DNA from: Marmoricola sp.
GTDB taxonomy: Bacteria; Actinomycetota; Actinomycetes; Propionibacteriales; Nocardioidaceae
Assembly (NCBI GenBank): GCA_025965195.1
Contig: JAOPXK010000015.1
Coordinates: 27,031-91,030, forward strand
DNA length: 64,000 bases
Direction: 5' to 3'
Shown here one piece after another: positions 8,966-52,972 of the stretch. The notes beneath the pieces were generated by a model. The model was not told the origin of the DNA. It made no database searches and saw only the letters and a list, made by a program, of their open reading frames with translations. Made by a program: the position numbers and the translations under genes. Each line of letters begins with the position of its first letter. The first letter of the stretch is position 1.

Positions 8966-9690
8966 CCCCAGCGCTGGGTGCGGGACAGCAGTGCCGAGAC
9001 GGCGGCAACTCCTGCGGTCGACGTACGCAACACCGAGGAGCCGAGCCGCACAACGTGCGCAGCTGAGAAAGCCGCCAGCTCCTCATCGCTGATGCCGCCC
9101 TCTGGACCGACGACGACCACGATCGACCTCGCCTCCGAGGCGGGCAGAGCCGCCAAGGGCGCGGTCGCCGCCTCGTGGAGCACGACGCCAAGGTCGGCCA
9201 CCTCGAGCAGGGCGACGACGTCCTCGGTCGTGGCGACAGGCGTCACGTCGGGCAGCCACGACCGGCGAGACTGCTTTCCCGACTCTCGCGCGGCGGACCG
9301 CCACTTGGCCAGTGACTTCTCGGCCCGCTCACCCCGCCAGACACCGACGCAGCGCGACGCGGCCCAGGGCACGATCCGGTCGACGCCGACCTCGGTCAGC
9401 ACTTCGACCGCGAGCTCGCCGCGATCACCCTTCGGGATCGCCTGTACGACGGTGACGACTGGCGACGGCCGCTCCTCGAAGCTGACTGCTTCAACGGTCG
9501 CGACCAGGGCGGCTTTCGCCAGCGAGACAACTGAGCAGGTCGCCGATGCACCCGCGCCGTCGGTGAGGACGAGCTGCTCTCCGACCCGGATCCGCCGCAC
9601 CACCACGGCATGGCGGCCTTCGTCACCGGCCAGGGTCACCTCGACCCCGGTGACGAAGGGCCCGGGAGCGATGAAGACCGGCAGGCTCAC
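8962..9690 (-). CDS. rsmE: 16S rRNA (uracil-1498-N3)-methyltransferase RsmE
   Basis: 242 aa. The SPOUT knot signature is clear: IVVVVGPEGGISDEELAAF and LGSSVLRTSTAGVAAVSALLS at the C-terminus, with a PUA-like N-terminal domain (HAVVVRRIRVGEQLVLTDG). The enzyme methylates U1498 of 16S rRNA in the assembled 30S subunit. It lies 21 bases after dnaJ2 on the same strand; the hrcA-dnaJ2-rsmE order is standard in actinobacteria. Confidence 0.95.
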   Translation of the reverse strand: MSLPVFIAPGPFVTGVEVTLAGDEGRHAVVVRRIRVGEQLVLTDGAGASATCSVVSLAKAALVATVEAVSFEERPSPVVTVVQAIPKGDRGELAVEVLTEVGVDRIVPWAASRCVGVWRGERAEKSLAKWRSAARESGKQSRRSWLPDVTPVATTEDVVALLEVADLGVVLHEAATAPLAALPASEARSIVVVVGPEGGISDEELAAFSAAHVVRLGSSVLRTSTAGVAAVSALLSRTQRWG

Positions 9691-9711
9691 TGAGACATCA
9701 CTGGGACATCA

Positions 9712-10878
9712 CTAGCGCGGCTTGAAGGCGTCCTTGAGCCGCCCGAAGACCGAGGTGTGCGCCGGCTGGATCTTCCCGTCCGGGGTCTCCTCGTTGCGTA
9801 ACACCGCCAGCTCGCGGAGCAGCTCCTCCTGCCGCTCATCGAGCCTGCCAGGGGTCTCGACGTCGATGGTGACGACCACGTCGCCACGCGCCTGTGAGCG
9901 CAGGCTCGGCACGCCACGCCCGCGGATGACCTGGTCGGTGCCGGACTGGGTGCCGGGACGGATGTCGAGGTCGACCCAGAGCTCGACCTCCGACTCGGGC
10001 TCAGCGATGTCGGCTTCGAGCAATGGCAGCCGGATCGTCGTACCGAGTGCGGCAGCGGTCATCGGAACCACCACGTGACAACGCAGGTTCAGACCTTCTC
10101 GCGTGTAGATCTTGTGCTCGGCGACCACGATCTCGACGTACAGGTCCCCAGGAGGGCCACCGCCGGGGCCGACCTCGCCCTGGTTGCCGAGCTGGACACG
10201 GGTGCCGTTGTCGACACCGGCCGGGATCTTCACGGTGATCGTGCGGCGTGAGCGGACCCGGCCGTCGCCGGCGCACTCCCGGCAGGGCTCGGGGATGATC
10301 TCGCCGAAGCCACGGCAGGCCGCGCACGGACGAAGCGTGCGGATCTCGCCGAGGAAGGACCGCTGGACGTGCTGCACCTCGCCATGACCGTGGCAGGTCT
10401 CGCAGATGATCGGACGGGAGCCGGCCGCGGCGCCGGATCCGGAACAGGTCGTGCAGAGGACGGCGGTGTCGACCTTCAGGTCACGAGTGGTCCCGAACGC
10501 CGCCTCGGCAAGCTCGACGTCGAGCCGCACGAGAGCGTCCTGACCCCGCCGCGACCGCGGTCGCGGACCTCGGCCCTGGCCTTGGGCATTGCCGCCGAAG
10601 AAGGCGTCCATGATGTCGGTGAAGGAGAAGCCCGCGCCCTGGCCGAAGCCCCCGCCGCCGCGGCCGAAGGGGTCGCCGCCAAGGTCGTACATCCGGCGCT
10701 TCTCGGGGTCGGAGAGGACCTCGTAGGCGGCCGAGACCTCCTTGAACCTCTCCTGCGTCGCAGGGTCGGGGTTGACGTCCGGGTGCAGCTGACGGGCAAG
10801 ACGGCGATAGGCCTTCTTGATGGTGTCGACGTCGGCCTCCCGGTCGACGCCGAGGATCTCGTAGGGGTCCGTGCTCAC
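9712..10878 (-). CDS. dnaJ: Molecular chaperone DnaJ (DnaJ2)
   Basis: 388 aa. The J domain at residues 1-70 has the HPD motif (LHPDVNPD). A Gly/Phe-rich linker follows ([18 protein letters not shown]). The zinc-finger region has four CxxCxGxG-type repeats ([32 protein letters not shown]); the last two vary at the glycines. The C-terminal substrate-binding domain completes the protein. It stimulates DnaK ATPase and delivers unfolded clients. It is 23 bases after hrcA and probably shares its CIRCE-controlled transcript. Actinobacteria usually keep a second dnaJ with dnaK-grpE elsewhere. Confidence 0.95.
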
Positions 10879-40546: not shown

Positions 40547-40876
40547 ATGCACGAACTGTCGATCGCCGAGAGCATCGTCGACACCGTCCTCGAGCGGACC
40601 GTGGATCGCCACGTCAGCTTGGTCCGGATCCGGGTCGGCAGGTTGGCGGCGGTCGTCCCCGATGCCCTTTCGTTCTGCTTCGACCTGGCCACGAGTGGTA
40701 CGCCGCTCGAAGGTTGCCGGCTCGAGATCCAGGAGCAGGACGCCCGCGCCCACTGCCGCGACTGCGACACCGAGTTCGTCCTCCCCGACCTGTTCCTGCT
40801 CTGCGCCTGCGGCAGTGCCGACCTCGAGATTCTGGCTGGACGGGAGCTGCAGGTCGCGTCGGTGGAGGTGGAGTGA
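40547..40876 (+). CDS. hypA: Hydrogenase nickel incorporation protein HypA
   Basis: 109 aa from the ATG giving MHELSIAESIVDTVLERT, whose MHE supplies the N-terminal nickel-binding residues. The zinc domain has CRDC as first pair, but the second pair is CAC (FLLCACGSADLEI), so the usual CxxCGS is shortened to CxC or uses only one aligned Cys. HypA delivers nickel to the large subunit together with HypB. It is the first gene of the hydrogenase locus, one base before hypB. The ORF track's longer form is antisense to leuS. Confidence 0.93.
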   Translation: MHELSIAESIVDTVLERTVDRHVSLVRIRVGRLAAVVPDALSFCFDLATSGTPLEGCRLEIQEQDARAHCRDCDTEFVLPDLFLLCACGSADLEILAGRELQVASVEVE

Positions 40877-40877
40877 G

Positions 40878-41633
40878 ATGTGCAGCACCTGCGGATGCGG
40901 ATCCGATGAGGTTCGGGTCACCGACATCGACCATCAGCACGCACATGACCACATGCACAACCACACGCACGACCACACGCACACTGACGACCGGGCCCAC
41001 ACCATCGAGCTCGAGCAGGCGGTGCTGTCACGCAACGACCACCTCGCCGAGCACAACCGGACCTGGCTCGCCGGCCGCAACATCACCGCGATCAACCTGA
41101 TGAGCTCGCCCGGTGCCGGCAAGACCACCCTGCTCGAGCGGACCGTCGCGCTGTGCGACCGCGTGGTCTCGGTCATCGAAGGTGACCAGGAGACACTCTT
41201 CGACGCCCAGCGGATTCGGGCGGCCGGGGCGCGGGCGGTCCAGGTCAACACCGGTGCCGGCTGTCACCTGGACGCCCGGATGGTGCAGCGCGCCCTCGAC
41301 GAGCTGCAGCCCGAGCCGGAGAGCCTCGTCTTCATCGAGAACGTCGGCAACCTCGTCTGTCCGGCCCTGTTCGACCTCGGCGAGCTGACGCGCGTCGTGG
41401 TCATCTCGGTGCCCGAGGGCGACGACAAACCACTGAAGTACCCGCACATGTTCGCGGCCGCGGATCTGGTCGTGGTGAACAAGACCGACCTGTTGCCGTA
41501 CGTCGATTTCGACGTCGACCGGTTGACCCGGGATGCACGTCGGCTGAACCCCGCCGTACAGGTGCTGCCCATCTCGGCCAGAACCGGTGAAAATCTCGAC
41601 AGCTGGCTGACATGGCTCGTCGATAAACCTTGA
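40878..41633 (+). CDS. hypB: Hydrogenase nickel incorporation GTPase HypB
   Basis: 251 aa from the ATG giving MCSTCGCGSDEV. The N-terminal CxxCGC nickel site is present, followed by a histidine-rich stretch (HQHAHDHMHNHTHDHTH) that likely stores or buffers nickel. The GTPase domain has the P-loop SSPGAGKTTLLE, the metal-site region NTGAGCHLDA, ENVGNLVCPALFDLGE and NKTDLLP. HypB uses GTP to load nickel into the large subunit. It starts one base after hypA and ends 134 bases before hhyS. Confidence 0.96.
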   Translation: MCSTCGCGSDEVRVTDIDHQHAHDHMHNHTHDHTHTDDRAHTIELEQAVLSRNDHLAEHNRTWLAGRNITAINLMSSPGAGKTTLLERTVALCDRVVSVIEGDQETLFDAQRIRAAGARAVQVNTGAGCHLDARMVQRALDELQPEPESLVFIENVGNLVCPALFDLGELTRVVVISVPEGDDKPLKYPHMFAAADLVVVNKTDLLPYVDFDVDRLTRDARRLNPAVQVLPISARTGENLDSWLTWLVDKP

Positions 41634-41767
41634 CATCGTCAATCACGTGGGCATCTGATGGAAAAGCAGTACTACCAAGAGGTCAAAATGGCGGCCTCTG
41701 CTCCGTTAGTTTCTGATGCATCCAACAGGGGTCTCCCTCGAGTTGGGCCCCGGAGAGCGGGCGGGCG
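41630..41767 (+). promoter_or_regulatory. hypB-hhyS intergenic region, candidate hydrogenase promoter and palindrome
   Basis: TTGAC-ATC-GTCAA (41630-41642) overlaps the hypB stop. It is a perfect palindrome and includes a TTGACA that could be a -35. A GGAGAG ribosome site precedes the hhyS ATG. At 134 bases this is by far the longest gap in the locus, so hydrogenase structural genes may have their own promoter. No clear -10 was found. Confidence 0.35.
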
Positions 41768-42823
41768 ATGCCCACTGCCGAAGCGATCAAAGCCGAACAG
41801 ACCCTGATCCACGTCCTCTGGATCAACGCCGGCCTCAGCTGCGACGGTGACTCCGTTGCGTTGACCGCGGCCACTCAACCAAGCATTGAAGAGATCGCGC
41901 TCGGCGCCCTCCCGGGCCTGCCGCAGATCGCGGTGCACTGGCCACTGATCGACTTCGAGTGCGGGCCGGCAGGCGGTGCCGACGACTTCCTGGAGTGGTT
42001 CCACAAGGCCGATCGAGGCGAGCTCGAGCCGTTCGTGCTCGTCGTCGAGGGTTCGATCCCGAACGAGAAGCTGCACGACGAGGGCTACTGGTGCGGCTTC
42101 GGCAACAACCCGGACACCGGTCAGCCGATGACGACCAGCGAGTGGCTCGACCGGCTCACGCCCAAGGCCACTGCCGTCGTTGCGGTCGGCACCTGCGCGA
42201 CGTACGGCGGCATCCACGCGATGGCCGGCAACCCCACCGGCGCGATGGGCGTTCCGGACTACCTCGGCTGGGACTGGAAGTCGAAGGCCGGGATCCCGAT
42301 CGTGTGCGTGCCCGGTTGCCCGATCCAGCCAGACAACCTGTCGGAGACGCTGACCTACCTTCTCTACATGGCGACCGGCCAGGCCCCGATGATCCCGCTC
42401 GATGACGAGCTTCGGCCCGCGTGGCTCTTCGGCAGCACCGTGCACGAAGGCTGTGACCGCGCCGGCTACTACGAGCAGTCCGACTTCGCGACGGAGTACG
42501 GCTCGCCGAAGTGCATCGTCAAGCTCGGCTGCTGGGGACCGGTAGTGAAGTGCAACGTCCCCAAGCGTGGCTGGATCAACGGTGTCGGAGGTTGCCCCAA
42601 CGTGGGCGGCATCTGCATCGGGTGCACGATGCCCGGCTTCCCGGACAAGTTCATGCCGTTCATGGACGAGCCACCGGGTGGCAAGTTGTCGACCACCGCC
42701 GTGATGCCGTACGGGAAGACGATCAAGCGCCTGCGCGCCATGACCACTCAGACGCTGAACAAGGAGCCCCAGTGGCGCTCCGACGGCGACCAACTGACCA
42801 CCGGCGCCCGCCGTACCTGGTGA
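41768..42823 (+). CDS. hhyS: Group 1h (group 5-type) [NiFe] hydrogenase small subunit
   Basis: 351 aa. There is no Tat signal; the N-terminus goes straight into LIHVLWINAGLSCDGDSVAL. The proximal cluster motif reads CDGD where most small subunits have CxxC, matching the Asp-ligated [4Fe-4S] cluster described for the Ralstonia actinobacterial-type hydrogenase. Further clusters are served by GTCATYGG, CVPGCPIQPDN, HEGCDR and CWGPVVKCNVPKRGWINGVGGCPNVGGICIGC. With HhyL it oxidises H2 at very low concentration. Cell position is cytosolic or membrane-attached; no transmembrane anchor is visible. Confidence 0.95.
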   Translation: MPTAEAIKAEQTLIHVLWINAGLSCDGDSVALTAATQPSIEEIALGALPGLPQIAVHWPLIDFECGPAGGADDFLEWFHKADRGELEPFVLVVEGSIPNEKLHDEGYWCGFGNNPDTGQPMTTSEWLDRLTPKATAVVAVGTCATYGGIHAMAGNPTGAMGVPDYLGWDWKSKAGIPIVCVPGCPIQPDNLSETLTYLLYMATGQAPMIPLDDELRPAWLFGSTVHEGCDRAGYYEQSDFATEYGSPKCIVKLGCWGPVVKCNVPKRGWINGVGGCPNVGGICIGCTMPGFPDKFMPFMDEPPGGKLSTTAVMPYGKTIKRLRAMTTQTLNKEPQWRSDGDQLTTGARRTW

Positions 42824-42845
42824 CGGAAGAGAAGGCAACGATCAC

Positions 42846-44639
42846 ATGACATCGACCATTCCGAACCCGAGCACGTTCGAGACAGACGCAAACGGCCTTA
42901 CCGACATGGCGTGGGACCCGATCACCCGCATCGTCGGAAGTCTGGGGATCTACACCAAGATCGACTTCAAGCAGAAGACCGTCGTCGAGTGCAAGAGCAC
43001 CTCGTCGATCTTCCGCGGCTACTCGATCTTCATGAAGGGCAAGGACCCTCGCGACGCCCACTTCATCACCAGCCGGATCTGCGGGATCTGTGGCGACAAC
43101 CACGCCACCTGCTCGTGTTACGCGCAGAACATGGCGTACGGCGTGAAGCCGCCGCCGCTCGGTGAGTGGATCGTCAACCTCGGCGAAGCCGCGGAGTACA
43201 TGTTCGACCACAACATCTTCCAGGAGAACCTGGTCGGCGTGGACTACTGCGAGCGGATGGTCGCCGAGACCAACCCGGGAGTCCTCGAGCTGGCGAACAA
43301 CACCGAGGCTCCGCACGCGGACGCCCATGGCTACCGGACCATCGGCGACATCATGCGGTCGCTGAACCCGTTCACCGGCGAGTTCTACCGCGAGGCGTTG
43401 CAGGTCAGTCGCTGGACCCGCGAGATGTTCTGCCTGATGGAGGGCCGGCACGTGCACCCGTCGACGCTCTACCCGGGCGGGGTCGGCACGGTCGCGACCA
43501 TCCAGCTGATGACCGACTACATCACCCGGCTGATGCGCTACGTGGAGTTCATGAAGAAGGTCGTGCCCATGCACGACGACCTCTTCGACTTCTTCTACCA
43601 GGCGCTTCCCGGTTACGAGGAGGTCGGCAACCGCCGCATCCTGCTCGCCTGCTGGGGTTCCTTCCAGGACCCCGACCACTGCAACTTCGACTACAAGGAC
43701 ATGACCAACTGGGGTCGCGCCATGTACGTCACCCCGGGCGTCGTGGTTGACGGCAAGCTCGTCACCACCGACCTGGTCGAGATCAACCTCGGCATCCGGA
43801 TCCTGCTCGGCTCGTCGTACTACGACGACTGGGAGGACCAGGAGGTCTTCGTCAGGAACGACCCCCTCGGGAACCCGGTTGACCGCCGGCACCCGTGGAA
43901 CCAGCACACCAATCCCAAGCCGCAGAAGCGCGACCTGGACAACAAGTACAGCTGGGTGATGTCACCACGCTGGTTCGACGGCAAGGACTACCTCGCCCTA
44001 GACACCGGGGGCGGACCGCTCGCACGGCTGTGGTCGACCGCCCTCGCCGGTCTGGTCGACATCGGTTACGTGCAGTCGACCGGGACCTCGGTGAAGATCA
44101 ACCTTCCGAAGACGGCTCTGAAGGGACCTGTCGAGTTCGAGTGGAAGATTCCCCAGTGGAGCAACACGATCGAGCGCAACCGGGCCCGCACCTACTTCCA
44201 GGCGTACGCCGCGGCATGCGCGCTGCACTTCGCCGAGAAGGCACTGGTGGAGATCCGCGCCGGGCGGACGAAGACCTGGGAGAAGTTCACCGTTCCCGAT
44301 CAGGGCATCGGGTGTGGCTTCACCGAAGCCGTCCGCGGAGTGCTCTCGCACCACCTCGTGATCCGCGACGGCAAGATCGCGAACTACCACCCCTACCCGC
44401 CCACCCCCTGGAACGCCAACCCTCGTGACGTCTACGGCACGCCCGGCCCCTACGAGGACGCCGTGCAAGGCCAGCCGATCTTCGAGGAGAACGACCGGGA
44501 GCACTTCAAGGGCATCGACATCATGCGGACGGTGCGAAGTTTCGACCCGTGCCTGCCCTGCGGGGTCCACATGTACCTCGGCGAAGGAAAGAAGCTCGAG
44601 CGGCTGCATACGCCGACTCAGTCCGCCGGCGTCGAGTAG
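42846..44639 (+). CDS. hhyL: Group 1h [NiFe] hydrogenase large subunit
   Basis: 597 aa. The L1 motif RICGICGDNHATCS (near residue 77) and the L2 motif SFDPCLPCGVHMY (near 570) hold the four cysteines of the NiFe site. About 20 residues follow the final His (MYLGEGKKLERLHTPTQSAGVE), the tail expected to be removed by a maturation endopeptidase, which is encoded downstream. Length and L2 wording fit the high-affinity actinobacterial group that oxidises atmospheric H2 during starvation. It starts 22 bases after hhyS. Confidence 0.96.
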   Translation: MTSTIPNPSTFETDANGLTDMAWDPITRIVGSLGIYTKIDFKQKTVVECKSTSSIFRGYSIFMKGKDPRDAHFITSRICGICGDNHATCSCYAQNMAYGVKPPPLGEWIVNLGEAAEYMFDHNIFQENLVGVDYCERMVAETNPGVLELANNTEAPHADAHGYRTIGDIMRSLNPFTGEFYREALQVSRWTREMFCLMEGRHVHPSTLYPGGVGTVATIQLMTDYITRLMRYVEFMKKVVPMHDDLFDFFYQALPGYEEVGNRRILLACWGSFQDPDHCNFDYKDMTNWGRAMYVTPGVVVDGKLVTTDLVEINLGIRILLGSSYYDDWEDQEVFVRNDPLGNPVDRRHPWNQHTNPKPQKRDLDNKYSWVMSPRWFDGKDYLALDTGGGPLARLWSTALAGLVDIGYVQSTGTSVKINLPKTALKGPVEFEWKIPQWSNTIERNRARTYFQAYAAACALHFAEKALVEIRAGRTKTWEKFTVPDQGIGCGFTEAVRGVLSHHLVIRDGKIANYHPYPPTPWNANPRDVYGTPGPYEDAVQGQPIFEENDREHFKGIDIMRTVRSFDPCLPCGVHMYLGEGKKLERLHTPTQSAGVE

Positions 44640-44645
44640 GTCCGG

Positions 44646-45578
44646 ATGCCGACAGCGAATCTCGATCCCGCTCCCCGGGACCTGCACGCCACCGGCGAGC
44701 GGATCGAGACGGTACTTGAGGCATGCTCGAGCGGAGCACCTTCGTCCCCTGCCGTTGCCCGTGGCCGGGCCGAGGAGCTCGTCGGGCTGGTCACCGACCT
44801 CTACGGCTCCGGCCTGGAGCGGATTCTCGATCTGTTCTACGAGGAAGGCCATCTCGACGAGGCGATGCTGAACCGGCTGGCCGGTGACGACCTGGTCTCG
44901 GGCCTGCTGCTGGTGCACGGCCTGCATCCGCACTCGATCGGGCAACGGGTGGAGGCGGCGCTGGAGAGCGTGCGCCCCTACCTCGGCTCCCACGGCGGCG
45001 ACGTGGAGCTCATCGACGTCCGAGACGACGGCACCGTCAAGCTGCGGCTGCTCGGGAGCTGTGACGGCTGTCCGTCCTCCTCCGTCACGCTGAAGCTCGC
45101 GGTTGAGGGTGCGATCGAGGCAGCAGCGCCCGAGGTGCACACGATCGAGGTCGAGGAGCCGCCGAGCGATGACGGGCTGATTTCGGTCGCATCGCTGAGA
45201 AGTCGGCTGGAGATGGACGGCTCCGCACCCGGTCGCTGGCTGCCGATCCCCGAGCTTGCCGACCTCGCCGACGGTGCCGTCCGATCGGTGACGGCTGGCG
45301 GTGAGGCGCTGCTGGCCTGTCGCTCCGGTGCGGACCTGTTCGCGTTCCGCAACTCGTGCGCACGCTGCGGCTCGGCGCTCGATGAGGCCACGCTCGGACG
45401 CCGACTCGGCGGCGCCGCCGGTCAGCCACTGCTGCGCTGCCCGACATGCGGCGTGCACTACGACGTACGTCGTGCCGGAGCGTGTCTCGACCAGCCCGAG
45501 CTTCACCTGGACCCGCTGCCCCTCGTCTTCGAGGCCGGGATCCCGTCGGTGGCCCTGCCGAAGGAGGCGGTCGGATGA
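44646..45578 (+). CDS. NifU C-terminal domain fused to a Rieske-like four-cysteine domain
   Basis: 310 aa, six bases after hhyL. Residues ~1-95 are helical with no known motif. Residues ~98-168 form a NifU C-terminal domain (VRPYLGSHGGDVELIDV, then GSCDGCPSSSVTLKLAVEGAI with the CxxC). Residues ~205-290 look like a Rieske fold (LFAFRNSCARCGSAL, LLRCPTCGVHYDVRRAG), but the normal CxH/CxxH is replaced by CARC and CPTC, 23 residues apart, so it may bind Zn, a mononuclear iron or an all-Cys cluster. It could deliver Fe-S clusters to, or take electrons from, the hydrogenase. Comparable proteins occur in other group 1h loci. Confidence 0.85.
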   Translation: MPTANLDPAPRDLHATGERIETVLEACSSGAPSSPAVARGRAEELVGLVTDLYGSGLERILDLFYEEGHLDEAMLNRLAGDDLVSGLLLVHGLHPHSIGQRVEAALESVRPYLGSHGGDVELIDVRDDGTVKLRLLGSCDGCPSSSVTLKLAVEGAIEAAAPEVHTIEVEEPPSDDGLISVASLRSRLEMDGSAPGRWLPIPELADLADGAVRSVTAGGEALLACRSGADLFAFRNSCARCGSALDEATLGRRLGGAAGQPLLRCPTCGVHYDVRRAGACLDQPELHLDPLPLVFEAGIPSVALPKEAVG

Positions 45579-46246
45579 GCGACCCGACCGGCTTCCCGGC
45601 CGGATCTCCGCTGGCAACCCTGCGCCGGATCAGCACCCGGCCACGACCGGCTGCCAACGAGGTGCCCGAAGAGCGCTGCGACATGTGCGCGGAGCCGGTC
45701 CCGGAGGAACACGGGCACGTGGTGGACCTCAACAGCCGCAGGCTGATGTGCAGCTGTCGGGGCTGCTACCTGCTGTTCACCGCCGACAACGCCGAGTTGC
45801 GCTTCCGGGCGGTGCCGGACCGCTACCTCCACTTTCCGGGCTTCGTCTTCACCACCGCCGACTGGGACTCCCTGCAGATCCCGGTCGGCCTCGCGTTCTG
45901 CTTCCGCAACTCGGTCCAGAAGGAGATGGTGGTCTTCTACCCCAGTCCTGCCGGCGCCACCGAGTCCGACCTGCCGATGGCCGCGTGGGAAACCATGCTG
46001 GCGTCCAACCCGGATCTCGCCCAGGTCCGTGACGACGTCGAGGCACTGCTGGTGCACCGCAATGACGACGGCGAGTTCAGCTGTCACATCGTCCCGATCG
46101 ACGCCTGCTACGCGTTGGTCGGCACGATGCGCAACACCTGGCGTGGCTTCGACGGCGGCCAGGAGGCGCGTGCTGCATTGGCCGACTTCTTCGACGACGT
46201 CGACCGACGGAGCCGGCCGGCGAAACCCGTCGGTGATGCTCAATGA
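45575..46246 (+). CDS. Hydrogenase-locus DUF5947 family protein
   Basis: 223 aa; its ATG overlaps the preceding stop (ATGA). The N-terminal region carries CDMCAEPVPEEHGH and LMCSCRGCYLLF, five cysteines and nearby His that look like a zinc or Fe-S site. The rest (LHFPGFVFTTADWDSLQIPVGLAFCFRNS) is beta-rich. I recall this as DUF5947, found beside group 1h hydrogenases in actinobacteria. No transmembrane segment or catalytic motif is apparent. A structural or maturation role for the hydrogenase is inferred only from gene linkage. Confidence 0.8.
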   Translation: MSDPTGFPAGSPLATLRRISTRPRPAANEVPEERCDMCAEPVPEEHGHVVDLNSRRLMCSCRGCYLLFTADNAELRFRAVPDRYLHFPGFVFTTADWDSLQIPVGLAFCFRNSVQKEMVVFYPSPAGATESDLPMAAWETMLASNPDLAQVRDDVEALLVHRNDDGEFSCHIVPIDACYALVGTMRNTWRGFDGGQEARAALADFFDDVDRRSRPAKPVGDAQ

Positions 46247-46902
46247 GTGACTGGACGTTCACCGTCCGCGAGGTCGTCGCCGAGCCGTATGCCGCCGTAC
46301 CCCAGCTGACCGCTCGGCTCCGGATCGAGGAGACGACCGGGCAGGTCGTGCACGCCATCGCGCTGCGCTGCCAGGTGCGGATCGAGCCGCAACGTCGTGG
46401 TTACAGCGCCCAGGAGGAGAAGGACCTGCAGGGCCTGTTCGGCAACCGGGAGCGCTGGTCGGACACGTTGCGGCCGTTCCTGTGGATGCAGGCCAACGCG
46501 ACTGTGCAGGGGTTCACCGACAGCACCGACGTGGATCTGCCACTGCCCTGCACCTACGACTTCGACGTGATCGGCTCGCGCTACCTGCACGCGCTGAAGG
46601 AAGGCGCGGTCCCGATCGAGCTGATGTTCTCGGGCACCATCTTCACCAAGGGCAGCAACGGCTTCGGCATCGAGCAGGTCCCCTGGAACTGCGATGCGCG
46701 CAACGAGATGCCCGTCACCGTCTGGCGCCAGCTGATGGAGACCTACTACGCCGGCTCGGGTTGGCTGCGGATGGACCACGACAGCATCAGTGCGCTGGCC
46801 GACTACCGCTCCCGGCACGGGCTGATCTCCTGGGAGGAGACCGTCGCCCGGCTGCTGCTGACCGATGACCTCTCAGCCATCGAGGGCGGTGGTGGCGCAT
46901 GA
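46243..46902 (+). CDS. Hydrogenase-locus DUF6084 family protein
   Basis: 219 aa, overlapping the DUF5947 stop (ATGA). It begins WTFTVREVVAEPYAAVPQLTARLRIEE and continues with alternating beta-type segments (IALRCQVRIEPQRRGYS, DVDLPLPCTYDFDVIGSRYL, ELMFSGTIF). I recall this as DUF6084. No membrane segment, signal peptide or cofactor motif is visible; two cysteines are isolated. It is always read together with DUF5947 and the 462-aa protein here through four-base overlaps, which suggests these three are made in fixed ratio, perhaps as a complex. Confidence 0.78.
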   Translation: MSDWTFTVREVVAEPYAAVPQLTARLRIEETTGQVVHAIALRCQVRIEPQRRGYSAQEEKDLQGLFGNRERWSDTLRPFLWMQANATVQGFTDSTDVDLPLPCTYDFDVIGSRYLHALKEGAVPIELMFSGTIFTKGSNGFGIEQVPWNCDARNEMPVTVWRQLMETYYAGSGWLRMDHDSISALADYRSRHGLISWEETVARLLLTDDLSAIEGGGGA

Positions 46903-48287
46903 GCGCCGGCCTCGCACGCACCCGCGCGGTCGCCGACGCCGTGCTCTACGAGGGTTACCTGCTCTATCCGTATCGCGCCAGCTCGAGCAAGAACCGGTCG
47001 CGCTGGCAGTTCGGCGTCCTCGGACCAGCGGGCGCGACGGAGGCCGGTTTCGGCGAGCCGGCCTCGATGCGGCTGCAGACGGTCACGACCGCTCCCGCAC
47101 CGGACGCGTCGATCACGGTGCACGTCCGCTTCCTCCAGCTCCAGTCCCGCCAGGTCCACGACGCTGCGGGTACTGCGGTGGCCGAGCTGCCGATCGCCGA
47201 TCCGGCTGCCCCCCGCACCGAGCTGACCTGGGACGAAGCCGTCGAGTGTGAGGTCGAGATCCGGTTACCGGGTGCCGCCTTGACCGCAGGGGTCAGCGAG
47301 CCGATCGTCGTCGCGGCCGGAGAGGACAGCGAGCCGATCCTGGGCGCCGCAGGTGTCGAGGCCGGTCGGGTCGCGCGGCGGCGGTGGCCACTCGCTGCCG
47401 AGCTGACCGCGTCCCTGGTCGTGCACGGGCGGTACGCCGTACTCGACATCGAGGTGCGCAACACCCACGGGGCCGTCCCGCTGGACCGGGATGATGCGAT
47501 CCGGCACTCCCTGATCGGCACCCATCTGATCGCCGAGGCCGATGGTCTGGAGTTCGTCTCGCTGACCGATCCACCCGACGATGCAGCCGACCTCGTTGCC
47601 CGGCAGCATCAGGACCGGTGCTGGCCGATGCTGGCCGGCGCGCCCGGGGACACCGATCTGCTGCTCGGGTCGCCGATCATCCTCTCCGACTACCCGGAGA
47701 TCGCCGGCGAGAGCGCCGGCTCGCTCTTCGACGCGACCGAGATCGACGAGATCCTGACGTTGCGGGTGATGACGATGACCGACGCGGAGAAGGCCGAAGC
47801 CCGGGCAACCGACCCGCGTGCGGCCGAGATCATCGACCGGTGCGACGGCCTCTCACCGGAGGAGCTTCAGCTCATGCACGGGATCAACCGCAACCCGCAC
47901 GACCTGGCACCGACCTCCTTCGACACCGGTGACGTGCCCTGGTGGTCACCGGAGGAGGACGCGAGCGTCCGGCCCGGACTCGACTCGGTGCTGATCGACG
48001 GTGTGAGCGTCGCTCGCGACAGTCTCGTCCGGGTGCATCCCGGTCGCCGGGCGGATGCCCAGGACCTGTTCTTCGCCGACCAGGTGGCCCGGGTGACAGC
48101 CGTGCTCTCCGACGTCGACGGTGGGACCCACGTTGCCCTGGTGCTGGTCGATGACCCTGCCGCCGACCTGCATGACCTCGCCGGGCGCTACTGGTACTTC
48201 GCACCCGACGAGCTCGAGCCGCTGTCACCGGAAGCTGCACGAAGCGAAACGACCGAAACCACACTCAGAGAGGAGAACAGCCAATGA
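46899..48287 (+). CDS. Hydrogenase-locus protein of unknown function, 462 aa
   Basis: Overlaps the DUF6084 stop by four bases. Starts TRAVADAVLYEGYLLYPYRASSSKNRSRWQFG. The middle holds beta-rich stretches (SITVHVRFLQLQ, LVVHGRYAVLDIEVRN) and a helical region (VMTMTDAEKAEARATDPRAAEIIDRCDGLSPEELQLMHG). The C-terminus has an SH3-like look (DSLVRVHPGRRADAQDLFFADQVARVTAVLSDVDG). No named family comes to mind; similar proteins exist in other actinobacterial group 1h loci as I recall. No Cys cluster or transmembrane helix is visible. Function unknown. Confidence 0.78.
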   Translation: MSAGLARTRAVADAVLYEGYLLYPYRASSSKNRSRWQFGVLGPAGATEAGFGEPASMRLQTVTTAPAPDASITVHVRFLQLQSRQVHDAAGTAVAELPIADPAAPRTELTWDEAVECEVEIRLPGAALTAGVSEPIVVAAGEDSEPILGAAGVEAGRVARRRWPLAAELTASLVVHGRYAVLDIEVRNTHGAVPLDRDDAIRHSLIGTHLIAEADGLEFVSLTDPPDDAADLVARQHQDRCWPMLAGAPGDTDLLLGSPIILSDYPEIAGESAGSLFDATEIDEILTLRVMTMTDAEKAEARATDPRAAEIIDRCDGLSPEELQLMHGINRNPHDLAPTSFDTGDVPWWSPEEDASVRPGLDSVLIDGVSVARDSLVRVHPGRRADAQDLFFADQVARVTAVLSDVDGGTHVALVLVDDPAADLHDLAGRYWYFAPDELEPLSPEAARSETTETTLREENSQ

Positions 48288-48403
48288 GGGTCCTGGGAAT
48301 TATCACGGTCACTGTCATCGGCGTGGTCGTCGTCATCGGCCTCGTCGTCGCAGTCATGTCGGTATCCGACTTCAAGCGCTATCTGCGGATCCGCCAGATG
48401 TAG
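48284..48403 (+). CDS. 39-aa single-helix membrane peptide of the hydrogenase locus (DUF6893-like)
   Basis: Too short for the ORF track. It has AGAGAGGAG upstream and its ATG overlaps the 462-aa gene's stop (ATGA). The product is one hydrophobic helix (MRVLGIITVTVIGVVVVIGL and on to about residue 26) followed by a basic tail (FKRYLRIRQM). I recall such peptides as DUF6893 in group 1h loci. HhyS and HhyL have no anchor of their own, so a membrane tether is an attractive role, but it is inference. Confidence 0.8.
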   Translation: MRVLGIITVTVIGVVVVIGLVVAVMSVSDFKRYLRIRQM

Positions 48404-48443
48404 GTCGCGGTCACGACGACGAGAAGAGATGAGGCAAGGACAC

Positions 48444-48947
48444 ATGGCTGACCTGACCCCACGGATCCTGGTCGCCGGCATCGGCAACATCTTCCTCGGA
48501 GATGACGGGTTCGGCCCCGAGGTGGTCCGCCGGCTCGCGAGCGAGCAGCTGCCTGAAGAGGTGCACGTGGTCGACTACGGGATTCGGGGCATGCATCTGG
48601 CCTACGACCTGCTCGGCGAGTACGACGCGCTGGTGCTCGTCGACGCGCTGCCGTCTCGGGAGGAGCCCGGAGCGGTGGTCGTTCTCGAGGTGACCGAGGA
48701 CGACCTGCCCCGGGAGGCCGACCTCGATGCCCATGACATGAACCCGGTCGCGGTGCTCGTCAGCTTGCGGCAGCTGGGCGGCACCCTCCCCCCGACGTAC
48801 GTCGTCGGAGCCGGGCCAGCAGTCCTCGACGAGGGCATCGGACTGAGCCCCGAGCTGGAGGCGGCCGTTCCCGAAGCCGTCCGAACCGTCCTCGCGCTGA
48901 TCGCGGAGCACGTCCGCCATGACGCAGTCGCGGCTGGAAGGAGCTGA
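48444..48947 (+). CDS. hupD: Hydrogenase maturation protease (HupD/HyaD family)
   Basis: 167 aa from the ATG giving MADLTPRILVAGIGNIFLGDDGFGPEVVRRL, preceded by AAGGA; an earlier ATG adds five residues. The metal-binding motif GIGNIFLGDDGFG with its Asp/Glu, and the later DALPSREEPG and DAHDMNPV, match the endopeptidases that cut the C-terminal tail of the large subunit after nickel insertion. HhyL in this locus has exactly such a tail. Confidence 0.93.
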   Translation: MADLTPRILVAGIGNIFLGDDGFGPEVVRRLASEQLPEEVHVVDYGIRGMHLAYDLLGEYDALVLVDALPSREEPGAVVVLEVTEDDLPREADLDAHDMNPVAVLVSLRQLGGTLPPTYVVGAGPAVLDEGIGLSPELEAAVPEAVRTVLALIAEHVRHDAVAAGRS

Positions 48948-48948
48948 C

Positions 48949-49215
48949 ATGTGCCTCGGGATTCCCGGTCAGGTGGTCGAGCTGGTGCCCGGATTCGGTG
49001 ACCAGCTCGCGGTCGTCGATGTCCAGGGCGCGCATCGCAGGATCAACATCGGGATGCTCGACGAGGCCCCCGAGCCCGGGAGCTGGGTGCTCATCCACAT
49101 GGGCTTCGCCCTGGAGGTCGTCGACGAGTCGGCCGCCGACGGCGCGCTGAGCGGCCTCGAGATGATGGGCCGGGCCCGGGAGGACAGCGACGAGCCGGAG
49201 GTGCGCGGTGCCTGA
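48949..49215 (+). CDS. hypC: Hydrogenase assembly chaperone HypC
   Basis: 88 aa from the ATG giving MCLGIPGQVVELVPG, with GAAGGAG in front. The N-terminal Met-Cys is the signature of HypC/HybG; the Cys contacts HypD and the precursor large subunit while the Fe(CN)2CO unit is made and passed on. The small beta-barrel continues through GSWVLIHMGFALEVVDE. Its partners HypD, HypE and HypF are not in the window. It overlaps the DUF6390 gene by eight bases. Confidence 0.94.
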   Translation: MCLGIPGQVVELVPGFGDQLAVVDVQGAHRRINIGMLDEAPEPGSWVLIHMGFALEVVDESAADGALSGLEMMGRAREDSDEPEVRGA

Positions 49216-49996
49216 GCTCCCGCCGTCCGCAGTCGCAGGCCCGGTGCTGTTCGCGAGATACGCCTACCCGCCGAACTCGCACGGCTACTGCGGTCCGAAC
49301 GACCACACCGCCTTCTTCCAGCAGGGCATGGCCGGCGACGACCGCGGGCTGCGGGCGATGTCACAGCAGTTCGCCGGTGCTTGGCCCTACCTCGAGCTGA
49401 TCGCCGGCTCACTCGGGCTCAACGATCCGCTGGACCCTCGGGTGGTCAATGCCTACTGGGTGGGCAGCCCCGAGCTGGACCGGGTCTCCACGCGTGCCGT
49501 CGGCAATTCGATGGACGAGCGGTTCCGCTTTCGCGCCGGGCCCGGCTTCGGTCACCTGACCGAGAGCGTGCTCGCCGGCGGAGTGCCCCACCACAGCTTT
49601 GCGGTGTTCTGCATCTATCCCTGGACAGGTCTCCTCAGCGAGGGGCGCAAGGCCGAGCACGCGCTGACGGTGCTCGACCAGTGCCGGATCCGTTGGGGGA
49701 AGGTGCTTGCGGTGCAGGGCGACCAGGTGGTCGTCGAGTCCACCCCGCTGACCTGGGACGGCCACCTGCTCGGCTTCGGCGAGCCCCGCTCGGAATCGGT
49801 GACCAGGTCGGTCGACGGAGTGGGCATGGCCACTCCCTTCGAGATCGGCGACTGGGTCTCGATGCACTGGGAGTGGGTGTGCGACCGGCTCACGGAGGGC
49901 CAGGTCCGCCACCTCCGTGACTTCACGGTCCGGCACCTGCGCATCGTCAACGAAGGCAACCTCCACTCGGGTCCGGCAGCACTTCTCGGTACCTGA
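49208..49996 (+). CDS. Hydrogenase-locus DUF6390 family protein
   Basis: 262 aa from a GTG that overlaps hypC by eight bases. The N-terminus GPVLFARYAYPPNSHGYCGPNDHTAFFQQ contains a Cys-Gly-Pro with nearby His, and there are aromatic-rich segments (FAVFCIYPWTGLLSEG, GDWVSMHWEWVCDRL). I recall this as DUF6390, associated with actinobacterial hydrogenase loci. No membrane segment is visible. The function is unknown; maturation or complex assembly is a guess from linkage. Confidence 0.78.
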   Translation: MPELPPSAVAGPVLFARYAYPPNSHGYCGPNDHTAFFQQGMAGDDRGLRAMSQQFAGAWPYLELIAGSLGLNDPLDPRVVNAYWVGSPELDRVSTRAVGNSMDERFRFRAGPGFGHLTESVLAGGVPHHSFAVFCIYPWTGLLSEGRKAEHALTVLDQCRIRWGKVLAVQGDQVVVESTPLTWDGHLLGFGEPRSESVTRSVDGVGMATPFEIGDWVSMHWEWVCDRLTEGQVRHLRDFTVRHLRIVNEGNLHSGPAALLGT

Positions 49997-50006
49997 AAGG
50001 ACGACG

Positions 50007-51161
50007 ATGGAACTCCCTCCTCGCGCACAGGACCCGACCGGAGCCGCCACCCGCCTGGACCTGCCCCGCAGATCTATCCTCGCCGGCGCCGTCGGGCTCG
50101 GCGCCGCTGCCGTGCTCTCGGGCTGTGGCAGCGACTCCCCCGCTACGACGAACCCCCGAAGCATCGTGGTCAAGGACCAGCGCGGGACCACGTTGAAGTT
50201 CGACAAGCCGGTACGCCGGATCGTCACGATCCCCATCCCCGCAGCCGCGATCGTGATGGCAGTCGACCAGTCGGCCGCGCACATCGTCGGCATGAACGAC
50301 CAGTCCTGGACCGCCGTACGCGACGGCATCATCAGCACGATCTACCCGACTGCGCTGCACATCGCCCACGGTGTCGCCGCCGAGGACTTCTCCCCCAACA
50401 TCGAGAGCATCCTCGCGCTGCGCCCTGACGTGGTCGTGCAATGGTCCAGCCAGGGCAACGGGATCATCACGCCGCTGGAGAACGCCGGACTGCCCGTCCT
50501 CGGCGTCGACTATGGCACGCTCGACGACCTTGAGATCTGGCTGACGATGTTCTCGACGATGCTCGGCAAGCCCGAGCGGGGCGAGGCCATGAACGCCCGC
50601 ACCGCGACGGCACAGGACGCGATGGTCAAGGAGGCGGCCACCCGGGCCGGGCGACCGCCCCGGGTGCTCTACTTCCTGCGGTTCGCCGACAGCATGCAGG
50701 TCGCGGGCGCGGAGACCTTCAACCACGAGTACATCAAGCTGGTCGGCGCCGAGAACGCCGCGGCAGAGATCACCGGCGGCTTCGGAGACGTCGACATCGA
50801 GCAGGTGCTCCGCTGGGACCCGGACATCGTGCTCCTCGGCACCTTCGACGCCGCGCTCCCCAAGGACATCTACGACGACCCGGTCTGGAAGGACGTGTCC
50901 GCCGTACGGTCGCGTCGGGTCTACAAGGTGCCTCTGGGCGGCTACCGCTGGGACCCGCCGAGCCAGGAGACCCCGTTGATGTGGCGCTGGCTCGCCGACA
51001 TCGCCTTCCCGACGGGCGCCGCCTCCGGCCTCCGGACCGCCATCACCGACGACTACGGTTTCCTCTACCGGACCGCTCCCACGCCCACCGAGATCGACGA
51101 CATCCTGTGGATGGACGACAACTCGGCCTCGGCCTCCTACGGTCAGTTCCGTGCTACCTGA
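50007..51161 (+). CDS. FecB/BtuF-type ABC transporter substrate-binding lipoprotein
   Basis: 384 aa from the ATG giving MELPPRAQDP, ten bases after the DUF6390 gene and with GAAAGGACGACG in front. The leader LPRRSILAGAVGLGAAAVLSGCGSD combines a twin-arginine and a lipobox, so it is probably a Tat-exported lipoprotein. Two lobes of the periplasmic-binding fold follow (RRIVTIPIPAAAIVMAVDQ; ILALRPDVVVQWSSQGN; VLRWDPDIVLLG). The family carries iron-siderophore, heme, cobalamin or, in some Helicobacter cases, nickel. Its position in the hydrogenase operon hints at Ni or Fe uptake, but the ligand is unproven. Confidence 0.88.
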   Translation: MELPPRAQDPTGAATRLDLPRRSILAGAVGLGAAAVLSGCGSDSPATTNPRSIVVKDQRGTTLKFDKPVRRIVTIPIPAAAIVMAVDQSAAHIVGMNDQSWTAVRDGIISTIYPTALHIAHGVAAEDFSPNIESILALRPDVVVQWSSQGNGIITPLENAGLPVLGVDYGTLDDLEIWLTMFSTMLGKPERGEAMNARTATAQDAMVKEAATRAGRPPRVLYFLRFADSMQVAGAETFNHEYIKLVGAENAAAEITGGFGDVDIEQVLRWDPDIVLLGTFDAALPKDIYDDPVWKDVSAVRSRRVYKVPLGGYRWDPPSQETPLMWRWLADIAFPTGAASGLRTAITDDYGFLYRTAPTPTEIDDILWMDDNSASASYGQFRAT

Positions 51162-52227
51162 AGCGCCTCCTCGGCCTCGGACCAGGATCCGGCGCAGCCG
51201 GCGCGCGTTGCGGCGGCCGAACACGCCGACAGCGGTCGCGATCACGGCGGTCGCGCTGGTCGTGGTGTCCGTGGTCGCGCTCTCCGTCGGTCGCTATCCC
51301 GTCCCGCTGTGGCACGTGGTGGGCGTCGTGACGTCGGGAGCGTTCGGCAGTGACTCGGTCAGCGACCCGGAACGCACCGTGGTCATCCTGGTCAGGCTGC
51401 CGCGGCTGCTGCTCGCCATCCTCGTCGGTGGCGGACTCGGCCTTGCGGGAGCCGCGCTGCAGGCGACGTTTCGCAACCCGCTCGTCAGCCCGGAGATCAT
51501 CGGGGTCTCCGCCGGCGCGTCGCTCGGTGGAGCACTCGCCCTCCTGCTCGGGCTCGGGTCGATCTTCCTGGTCGGCGGCGCCTTCGTCTTCGGCCTGTCC
51601 GCACTGGCCCTGCTCTTCGTGCTGACGCTCGGGCGGAGCGGGACTCCCATGCTCATGGTCGTCCTCGGCGGAGTGGTGGTCGGCTCGTTCTTCTCGGCAC
51701 TGGTCTCGCTCGTCACCTATGTCGCGGACCCCTACACGACGCTCCCGGCGATCGTGTTCTGGCTGCTGGGCAGCGTCGCGACCGCGACCTCCACGAAGGT
51801 GGTGATCGCGGCGGTGCCGATCCTGGCCGGCGCCGCGGTCATCATGCTGCTGCGCTGGCGGCTCAACGTGCTCTCGCTCGGCGACGAGGAGGCCGAGTCA
51901 CTCGGGATGAACCCGAGCCGGATGCGCTGGACGATCCTGGTGGCGACGTCGCTGATCGTGGCTGGAGCCGTGGCCGTCAGTGGGGTCATCGGCTGGGTCG
52001 GCCTGGTCATCCCGCACCTGGCCCGGATGTGGGTCGGCCCGGACCATCGGGTGCTGCTGCCGGTCTCGTTCCTGGCCGGCGCGGTCTACCTCGTCCTGAT
52101 CGACAGCCTTGCCCGGACGATGACCGCCGGCGAGATCCCGTTGGGGGTGCTGACCGCGATGATCGGCGCACCGGTGTTCTTCCTGCTGCTGCGTGGCAAC
52201 CGAGACCGGATCTGGGACCATGCTTGA
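51151..52227 (+). CDS. FecCD/BtuC-type ABC transporter permease
   Basis: 358 aa from a GTG that overlaps the binding-protein gene by 11 bases. Eight to ten hydrophobic segments and the FecCD signature RLPRLLLAILVGGGLGLAGAALQATFRNPLVSPEIIGVSAGASLGG are clear; the NPLVSPE stretch and the later GWVGLVIPHLARMWVGPDHR contact the ATPase. A single permease gene would act as a homodimer. The first 25 residues are basic and cytosolic. Confidence 0.93.
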   Translation: MLPEAPPRPRTRIRRSRRALRRPNTPTAVAITAVALVVVSVVALSVGRYPVPLWHVVGVVTSGAFGSDSVSDPERTVVILVRLPRLLLAILVGGGLGLAGAALQATFRNPLVSPEIIGVSAGASLGGALALLLGLGSIFLVGGAFVFGLSALALLFVLTLGRSGTPMLMVVLGGVVVGSFFSALVSLVTYVADPYTTLPAIVFWLLGSVATATSTKVVIAAVPILAGAAVIMLLRWRLNVLSLGDEEAESLGMNPSRMRWTILVATSLIVAGAVAVSGVIGWVGLVIPHLARMWVGPDHRVLLPVSFLAGAVYLVLIDSLARTMTAGEIPLGVLTAMIGAPVFFLLLRGNRDRIWDHA

Positions 52228-52972
52228 GCTCGATGACGTCGGCTTCGGTTACGAGCCCGGAGCCTGGGTCTTCCGCCACCTGAGCCTGACCGTGCCGTCG
52301 GGGTCGATCACCGCCGTGCTCGGCCCGAACGGCCGGGGCAAGACCACCCTGGTCCGCTGCGCCGCAGGGTTGCTGAAGCCGCGCGAGGGTGTGGTCACCC
52401 ACGACGGACCGATCGGCTTCGTCCCCCAGGCGCGTGGCGGCGCATTCGCCTACCGGGCAGTCGACATGGTGCTGATGGGTCGTGTCAGGCAGGTCGGCCT
52501 GTTCGCGTCGCCGGGGCGTGATGATCGGGTGGCCGCGATCGATGCGATGGAACGGACCGGGGTCGGCCACCTTCGGGACCGGCAGTTCCCCACCCTCAGC
52601 GGAGGCGAGCAGCAACTGGTGCTGATCGCCAGGGCGCTCGCCTCGGACTGCCCGATGCTCGTGCTCGACGAACCGTCCACCGGCCTCGACCTGCACAACC
52701 AGGCGCAGATCCTGTCGTTGCTGCGCAAGCTCGTGGCCGACGGGATGGGCGTGCTGCTGACCACCCACCATCCCGACCAGGCGCTCTTCCTTGCCGACTC
52801 CGTGCTGCTGATGGGTGGCCCTGACGACGTACGCACTGGTCCGGCGGCTGAGCTCCTCACCGATGCGGAGCTCTCCCGGCTGTACGCCATCGACGTCCAC
52901 ACGCTGACCTACGAACAGAACGGCAACGAGCGCAGGGCCATCGTCACGCGCTACGGCGACGAGCTCGACTGA
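52220..52972 (+). CDS. FecE/BtuD-type ABC transporter ATP-binding protein
   Basis: 250 aa from the ATG giving MLELDDVGFGYEPGAW, overlapping the permease by eight bases. Walker A GPNGRGKTT, Q-loop FVPQARGG, signature LSGGEQQ, Walker B MLVLDEPSTGLD and switch His (LLTTHH) are intact. The ORF track's nine extra residues lie inside the permease. It completes the importer and is the last gene of the locus; the next gene is convergent ten bases on. Confidence 0.94.
   Translation: MLELDDVGFGYEPGAWVFRHLSLTVPSGSITAVLGPNGRGKTTLVRCAAGLLKPREGVVTHDGPIGFVPQARGGAFAYRAVDMVLMGRVRQVGLFASPGRDDRVAAIDAMERTGVGHLRDRQFPTLSGGEQQLVLIARALASDCPMLVLDEPSTGLDLHNQAQILSLLRKLVADGMGVLLTTHHPDQALFLADSVLLMGGPDDVRTGPAAELLTDAELSRLYAIDVHTLTYEQNGNERRAIVTRYGDELD

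Follow-up and report, generated by a model that had tools for sequence, protein, structure and literature searches.

How does a hydrogenase that has no membrane segment come to work at the membrane? Soil uptake by group 1h [NiFe] hydrogenases is the main sink for atmospheric H2, and their membrane attachment and electron transfer to quinone have been stated as an open question in papers from 2019 to 2026. Neither a transmembrane helix nor a signal peptide is present in the subunits, but several species hold the enzyme at the membrane, by a partner described as unknown (PMC7174314); according to a 2026 paper, no anchoring subunit has been identified so far (PMC13332983). The question arises again in a 64,000-nucleotide stretch from Marmoricola sp. 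(contig JAOPXK010000015.1, positions 27,031 to 91,030 of the forward strand; called the window below), which holds an operon at 40547-49996 with all genes on the + strand, in the order hypA-hypB-hhyS-hhyL-hhyE-DUF5947-DUF6084-p462-DUF6893-hupD-hypC-DUF6390. Here p462 is shorthand for a protein of 462 amino acids (aa) and DUF6893 for a peptide of 39 aa. An earlier note had singled out the genes between hhyL and a downstream importer as the strongest candidate in the window for an undescribed system. The set is instead the standard accessory part of the known group 1h operon, and the peptide within it emerges, from sequence comparison, as a candidate for the missing anchor or docking subunit.

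The hydrogenase and its membrane peptide

As group 1h (Hhy) hydrogenase operons go, this one is ordinary. A string check found both group 1h signatures in the large subunit HhyL (L1 TSRICGICGDNH and L2 SFDPCLPCGVH, motifs as defined in PMC5364354). HhyL is 65-94% identical to its relatives, and its nearest solved chain, far ahead of others, is C. necator HofG (5AA5). No transmembrane stretch was found in HhyS or HhyL (hydropathy maxima 1.3 and 1.2), nor a twin-arginine signal at the start of translation of HhyS. Lacking an export signal and any membrane segment, the H2-oxidising pair must, to judge from its sequences, be cytosolic.

The sole operon product with a transmembrane stretch is the 39-aa peptide (hydropathy 3.1, against at most 1.6 for all others), which passes the Pfam cut-off for DUF6893 (36.9 bits against 24.6). 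It is present in 88 of the 90 loci whose contig covers its place, lying in the gap between p462 and hupD 79 times and after hupD 10 times. Across 90 aligned peptides D29, R32 and Y33 are invariant and R37 and M39 nearly so; conservation is concentrated in the last 12 residues, with a D..RY core near the C-terminus, and the hydrophobic part drifts. The peptide is under purifying selection: the median rate of nonsynonymous differences (pN) is 0.11 against 0.42 for synonymous ones (pS), and pN is below pS in 162 of 163 moderately diverged pairs. A chance open reading frame (ORF) was ruled out by conservation, selection and linkage. The net charge is -0.2 over the first five residues and +3.7 over the last fifteen, an asymmetry that under the positive-inside rule would place the basic tail (D..RY..+R+M) in the cytosol.

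A search for the D..RY motif together with a transmembrane stretch matched 94 of 36,647 ORFs: 93 are DUF6893 family hits and the other belongs to a Methylocystis hhy operon, whose copy was thereby located in the hupD-hypC gap. A DUF6893 peptide is also encoded on C. necator pHG1 (E 7e-7), where the PLSDB table, itself incomplete, lists no gene. These two plasmids are the evidence from outside Actinomycetota. In Mycobacterium palustre (L103, 15287-15931) the peptide is in frame with hupD with no intervening stop, possibly a fusion or a sequencing error.

Two genome samples bear on how closely these families follow the enzyme. In the first (150 genomes of the phylum, 1h HhyL called at no less than 65% identity), 20 genomes carry 1h HhyL, and one more (G108) a fragment only. 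DUF5947, DUF6084 and p462 occur in 19 genomes each, exclusively among those 20, and DUF6893 in 15 of the 20 and in no other genome (Fisher p 4e-23 for each of the first three and 1e-16 for the peptide), an association far beyond chance. Among the gaps, DUF5947 is missing at a contig end, and DUF6084 is missing in G129, which has a variant operon. The neighbourhood survey proposed by the earlier note thus found the families not to be scattered independently of hhyL across the 150 genomes.

The second sample (297 genomes of the class, searched with a DUF6893 profile) contained 1h HhyL in 54 genomes, 45 of which had a profile match, as did three others. The match in G154 is under the cut-off and that in G172 is partial, covering the hydrophobic part only; that in G220 is real and full-length. 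It lies in a relic hhy operon (L153, 9155-10688): hhyL and the middle genes have been lost, and what is left is a fragment of hhyS, fragments of p462, an intact-looking peptide, hupD and a hypC-like stretch. Nine 1h genomes gave no profile match. One (G211) has a divergent copy, and five (G129, G226, G301, G346 and G380) have transmembrane peptides soon after DUF5947 whose final residues are related (such as REYPALVRYIRIEKM). Support for these divergent cases comes from motif and position and is weaker. In G227, G239 and G291 no peptide was found by profile or by motif and position.

Gene set, variants and neighbours

The gene set, its positions and order between hhyL and the importer, and the interleaving with hupD and hypC, all as first described, were borne out by ORFs and Pfam matches:

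40547-40876, + strand: hypA; start MHELSIAESIVD, matches Streptomyces HypA
40878-41633, + strand: hypB; Pfam CobW/HypB/UreG (E 2.7e-23), MCSTCGC start and His-rich stretch
41768-42823, + strand: hhyS, small subunit; Pfam NiFe_hyd_SSU_C, CDGDS at residues 25-29
42846-44639, + strand: hhyL, large subunit, group 1h; PF00374, 1h L1 and L2 motifs
44646-45578, + strand: hhyE, NifU domain and all-cysteine Rieske-fold domain; PF01106 (E 4e-23), PF00355 (E 9e-5)
45575-46246, + strand: DUF5947 protein; PF19372 (E 4e-73), CxxC..HxH..CxCxxC metal-type site
46243-46902, + strand: DUF6084 protein; PF19562 (E 6e-93)
46899-48287, + strand: p462; no Pfam family above cut-off
48284-48403, + strand: DUF6893, 39-aa single-pass membrane peptide, candidate membrane anchor; PF21833 (E 4e-9)
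48429-48947, + strand: hupD, maturation protease; PF01750, TIGR00072
48949-49215, + strand: hypC; PF01455, TIGR00074
49208-49996, + strand: DUF6390 protein, HypC-like C-terminal domain, probable maturation factor; PF19927 (E 3e-92)

The overlaps are real: four bases at hhyE/DUF5947, DUF5947/DUF6084, DUF6084/p462 and p462/peptide, and eight at hypC/DUF6390. The longest ORF for DUF5947 opens at 45446, but the conserved start is 45575. Gene order is nearly constant across 101 actinobacterial loci. In variant Hhy operons (L143, L155, L156 and L158-L161), p462 and mostly hupD lie upstream of hhyS; DUF6084 was not found beside hhyL in the stretch read, and several of these operons have a divergent transmembrane peptide after DUF5947. 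The rearrangement thus spares the peptide but not DUF6084, which is therefore not universal. Among distant HhyL relatives (L051 and L052, 39-44% identity) there are HhyE-like proteins, but DUF5947, DUF6084 and p462 were not found.

The same arrangement is on record elsewhere. The M. smegmatis Hhy operon (MSMEG_2722-2718 onward) has hhyS, hhyL, hhyE and later hypothetical genes in matching order, with no difference of kind, and the Methylocystis plasmid is a close match. C. necator pHG1, which encodes HofKG (5AA5), shares the order small subunit, large subunit, NifU, DUF5947, DUF6084, 476-aa protein and protease, with DUF6893 after the protease; it differs in that HhyE is the NifU part only (192 aa), that no DUF6390 lies in the stretch, and that the enzyme was purified from the cytoplasm and has low affinity (PMC7174314). 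The cluster with its hypothetical proteins has been mapped in R. equi, M. smegmatis and C. necator (PMC13332983) and in Acidobacteria (PMC5900883). A wholly new system was rejected, since gene maps in the literature already show the operon and a deletion of hhyE has been made; in addition, HhyE received its name in 2019 (PMC6883350) and PHG067 had already been proposed as an electron acceptor. In the literature searched on Hhy, neither the gene for the 39-aa peptide nor the HypC-like domain of DUF6390 is mentioned; the names DUF5947, DUF6390 and DUF6893 were not found there, and DUF6084 appeared only in an antibiotic-cluster paper.

For p462, the AlphaFold model (predicted local distance difference test, pLDDT, 80) has a beta-rich N-terminal part, a helical middle and a small SH3-like C-terminal domain. 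In three genomes (L044, L045 and L147) a stop cuts the SH3-like domain off as an ORF of its own, behind a long N-terminal ORF. Profile searches of the PDB with p462, DUF6084 and DUF5947 gave nothing meaningful, and DUF5947 is without a solved relative. The top Foldseek match of p462 was the DISARM defence protein DrmA (E 6e-6, though with a TM-score of 0.24), and its C-terminal domain matched PetP of cytochrome b6f (TM-score 0.75 over 64 aa, E 0.045); neither was used for function. A HypC-like domain in p462 was ruled out (hhalign P 0.15).

Directly after DUF6390 lies an ATP-binding cassette (ABC) importer (Peripla_BP_2, FecCD and ABC_tran; 49917-52972), the longest ORF of whose first gene overlaps DUF6390; from its position and domains, it could possibly supply a metal or cofactor to the hydrogenase. 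The source genome is a 98%-complete draft of 4.0 Mb in 200 contigs. In it HypD and HypF were not found and HypE was seen only under its cut-off, with hypA, hypB and hypC in the window; since related loci carry hypDEF elsewhere, this is probably an assembly gap.

Proposed docking, assembly and route of electrons

A mechanism can be proposed that builds on the observed presence, order, linkage, selection and sequence-derived topology. HhyE would take or relay electrons from HhyS; DUF5947, DUF6084 and p462 would be partners specific to 1h enzymes, either joining HhySLE in a complex or helping to build it; DUF6893 would sit in the membrane with its conserved tail in the cytosol and dock the enzyme where quinone is reduced; and HupD, HypABC and DUF6390 would mature HhyL, DUF6390 probably at the HypC/HypD/HypE step. 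As a whole this proposal appears evenly poised between right and wrong. Its central part, that DUF6893 is the membrane-docking subunit of group 1h hydrogenases and that its D..RY tail binds a HhySLE/DUF5947/p462 complex, placing the enzyme at the quinone pool, is held tentatively, a little short of that balance. The need for HhyE in H2 uptake is the only function here that is published; the others we infer. The earlier idea of an anchoring or electron-transfer role is plausible for the peptide, HhyE and DUF5947; DUF6390 looks like a maturation factor. A dedicated module with a strong link to hydrogenase is supported: DUF5947, DUF6084, p462 and DUF6893 are linked to the 1h enzyme, whereas DUF6390 also lies beside other hydrogenases.

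Several observations weigh against docking by the peptide. First, C. necator carries the peptide, but its enzyme is cytoplasmic (PMC7174314). Second, the 1h enzyme of Methylacidiphilum fumariolicum SolV is membrane-associated and of high affinity, reportedly without homologues of the hypothetical proteins (PMC7174314); the module is thus not required by every 1h enzyme. Third, in a clade at 65% identity, two of three operons have no recognisable peptide, and the contig of the third ends too early. A membrane link is already described for another high-affinity enzyme: Huc (group 2a) of M. smegmatis, which also has a NifU/Rieske protein (HucE), is linked to the membrane via HucM, a 188-aa coiled-coil scaffold (PMC10017518). 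Nothing similar to HucM was seen in the operon here, and at the Huc-like locus L140 DUF5947, DUF6084, p462 and DUF6893 were not found.

The accessory proteins could also be transient. On this somewhat unlikely alternative, DUF5947, DUF6084, p462 and the peptide are assembly or maturation factors only, which aid iron-sulfur (Fe-S) insertion or HhyS-HhyL pairing near the membrane and then leave. Their genes make up a single overlapping run that follows the structural genes and precedes hupD/hypC, in C. necator the enzyme is known only as HofKG, and HhyE carries a NifU domain and was given a possible maturation role by Islam 2019 (PMC6883350). However, native gels cited in that paper show HhyE co-localising with HhyL and HhyS, a departing factor would not account for the active enzyme being associated with the membrane, and in other [NiFe] groups the Hyp machinery manages without these proteins.

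Where the electrons would go turns on HhyE and DUF5947. HhyE had been taken for a NifU/Rieske-like fusion, and it does have a NifU domain and a Rieske fold. The Rieske likeness is of fold only (the weak Pfam match listed above): the ligands form a CxxC...CxxC set (CARC...CPTC C-terminal, besides CDGC in the NifU domain) rather than CxH...CxxH, and a true Rieske centre was rejected, both His ligands having changed to Cys. The HucE-type protein at the group 2a-like locus L140, unlike HhyE, retains the true CxH...CxxH ligands. The NifU CxxC and the two C-terminal CxxC pairs are invariant in 87 sequences; this is the published HhyE pattern, without the Rieske CxH, and the one seen in M. smegmatis (PMC6883350). 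When hhyE (MSMEG_2718) was deleted and named in that species, Hhy-dependent H2 uptake was abolished (Islam 2019). In DUF5947, the five Cys and two His of CxxC..HxH..CxCxxC are invariant in 93 sequences, and the protein probably binds metal there. By gene order PHG067 would be DUF5947, and its homologue MSMEG_2717 is indicated as a possible electron acceptor in PMC6883350.

A different route, from HhyS to DUF5947 (of the PHG067/MSMEG_2717 type) as immediate acceptor and on to quinone, with HhyE as a cluster donor only, would suit these seven invariant residues, the earlier proposal for PHG067 as cited in PMC6883350, and the fact that C. necator and others keep only the NifU domain of HhyE while the DUF5947 site is retained. 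This route is nonetheless unlikely: the ligand pattern suits zinc as well as Fe-S, there is no solved relative to consult, and deletion of HhyE phenocopies deletion of the hydrogenase (PMC6883350). That the peptide instead serves a different membrane protein, or has a regulatory or stress function and is co-transcribed only since both serve dormancy, is improbable, for although many small bacterial membrane proteins are regulators (general knowledge) and an importer follows the operon in the window, the peptide tracks the hydrogenase across two phyla and rearranged operons and has no convincing free-standing copy in the two genome samples except in the relic operon.

DUF6390, its probable role in maturation, and meaning

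DUF6390 is read as a maturation factor on three grounds: it also occurs near other hydrogenases, its gene comes after hyp genes, and its C-terminal domain resembles HypC. In the first sample 10 genomes have it; two of these lack 1h HhyL, and its gene is often on a different contig. It was accordingly rejected as a member of the 1h-specific set, the two genomes without hhyL being joined by several others in which it is on a separate contig or beside another hydrogenase. The gene next to it on the upstream side is hypE (23 cases), hypC (13), hypF (7) or hypD (3), and in L136, L137 and L139 it adjoins another [NiFe] large subunit. In L138 a DUF6390 gene (9351-10247) stands without any of the searched hydrogenase or Hyp genes in the roughly 10 kb flanking it to left and right.

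The C-terminal half matches the HypC profile (hhalign P 4.8e-5), against P 0.12 to 0.58 for other module proteins and 0.016 for a reversed control. A PDB profile search gave four weak matches, including HypC chains, over the same stretch, and with the AlphaFold model (pLDDT 87) Foldseek returned HypC 2z1c at probability 1.00. His220, which is conserved, lines up with the conserved His of HypC chaperones, and a conserved Cys (Cys159) stands just before the first strand. Unlike HypC, DUF6390 has an additional N-terminal half (some 150 aa) that includes an invariant Cys of the GYCGP type, and since its conserved Cys159 is internal and not residue 2, it is not a HypC by the Cys-2 criterion. Counting against the reading, the match spans just some 30 columns and the Foldseek E-value is 0.08. 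Together, models and profiles point to a probable role in maturation for DUF6390 and to a HypC-like domain, on fold evidence that is suggestive, not firm. If so, it would be an additional [NiFe] maturation factor serving more than one hydrogenase group.

For the group 1h enzymes themselves, a strictly linked, near-universal peptide with a short invariant tail offers a concrete, testable answer to the question of attachment. It may bear on the observation that a purified 1h enzyme drops in affinity once off the membrane (PMC7174314), though that species is reportedly without the other accessory genes. If the docking role is true, membrane attachment, and thereby access to atmospheric H2, would depend on a micropeptide.

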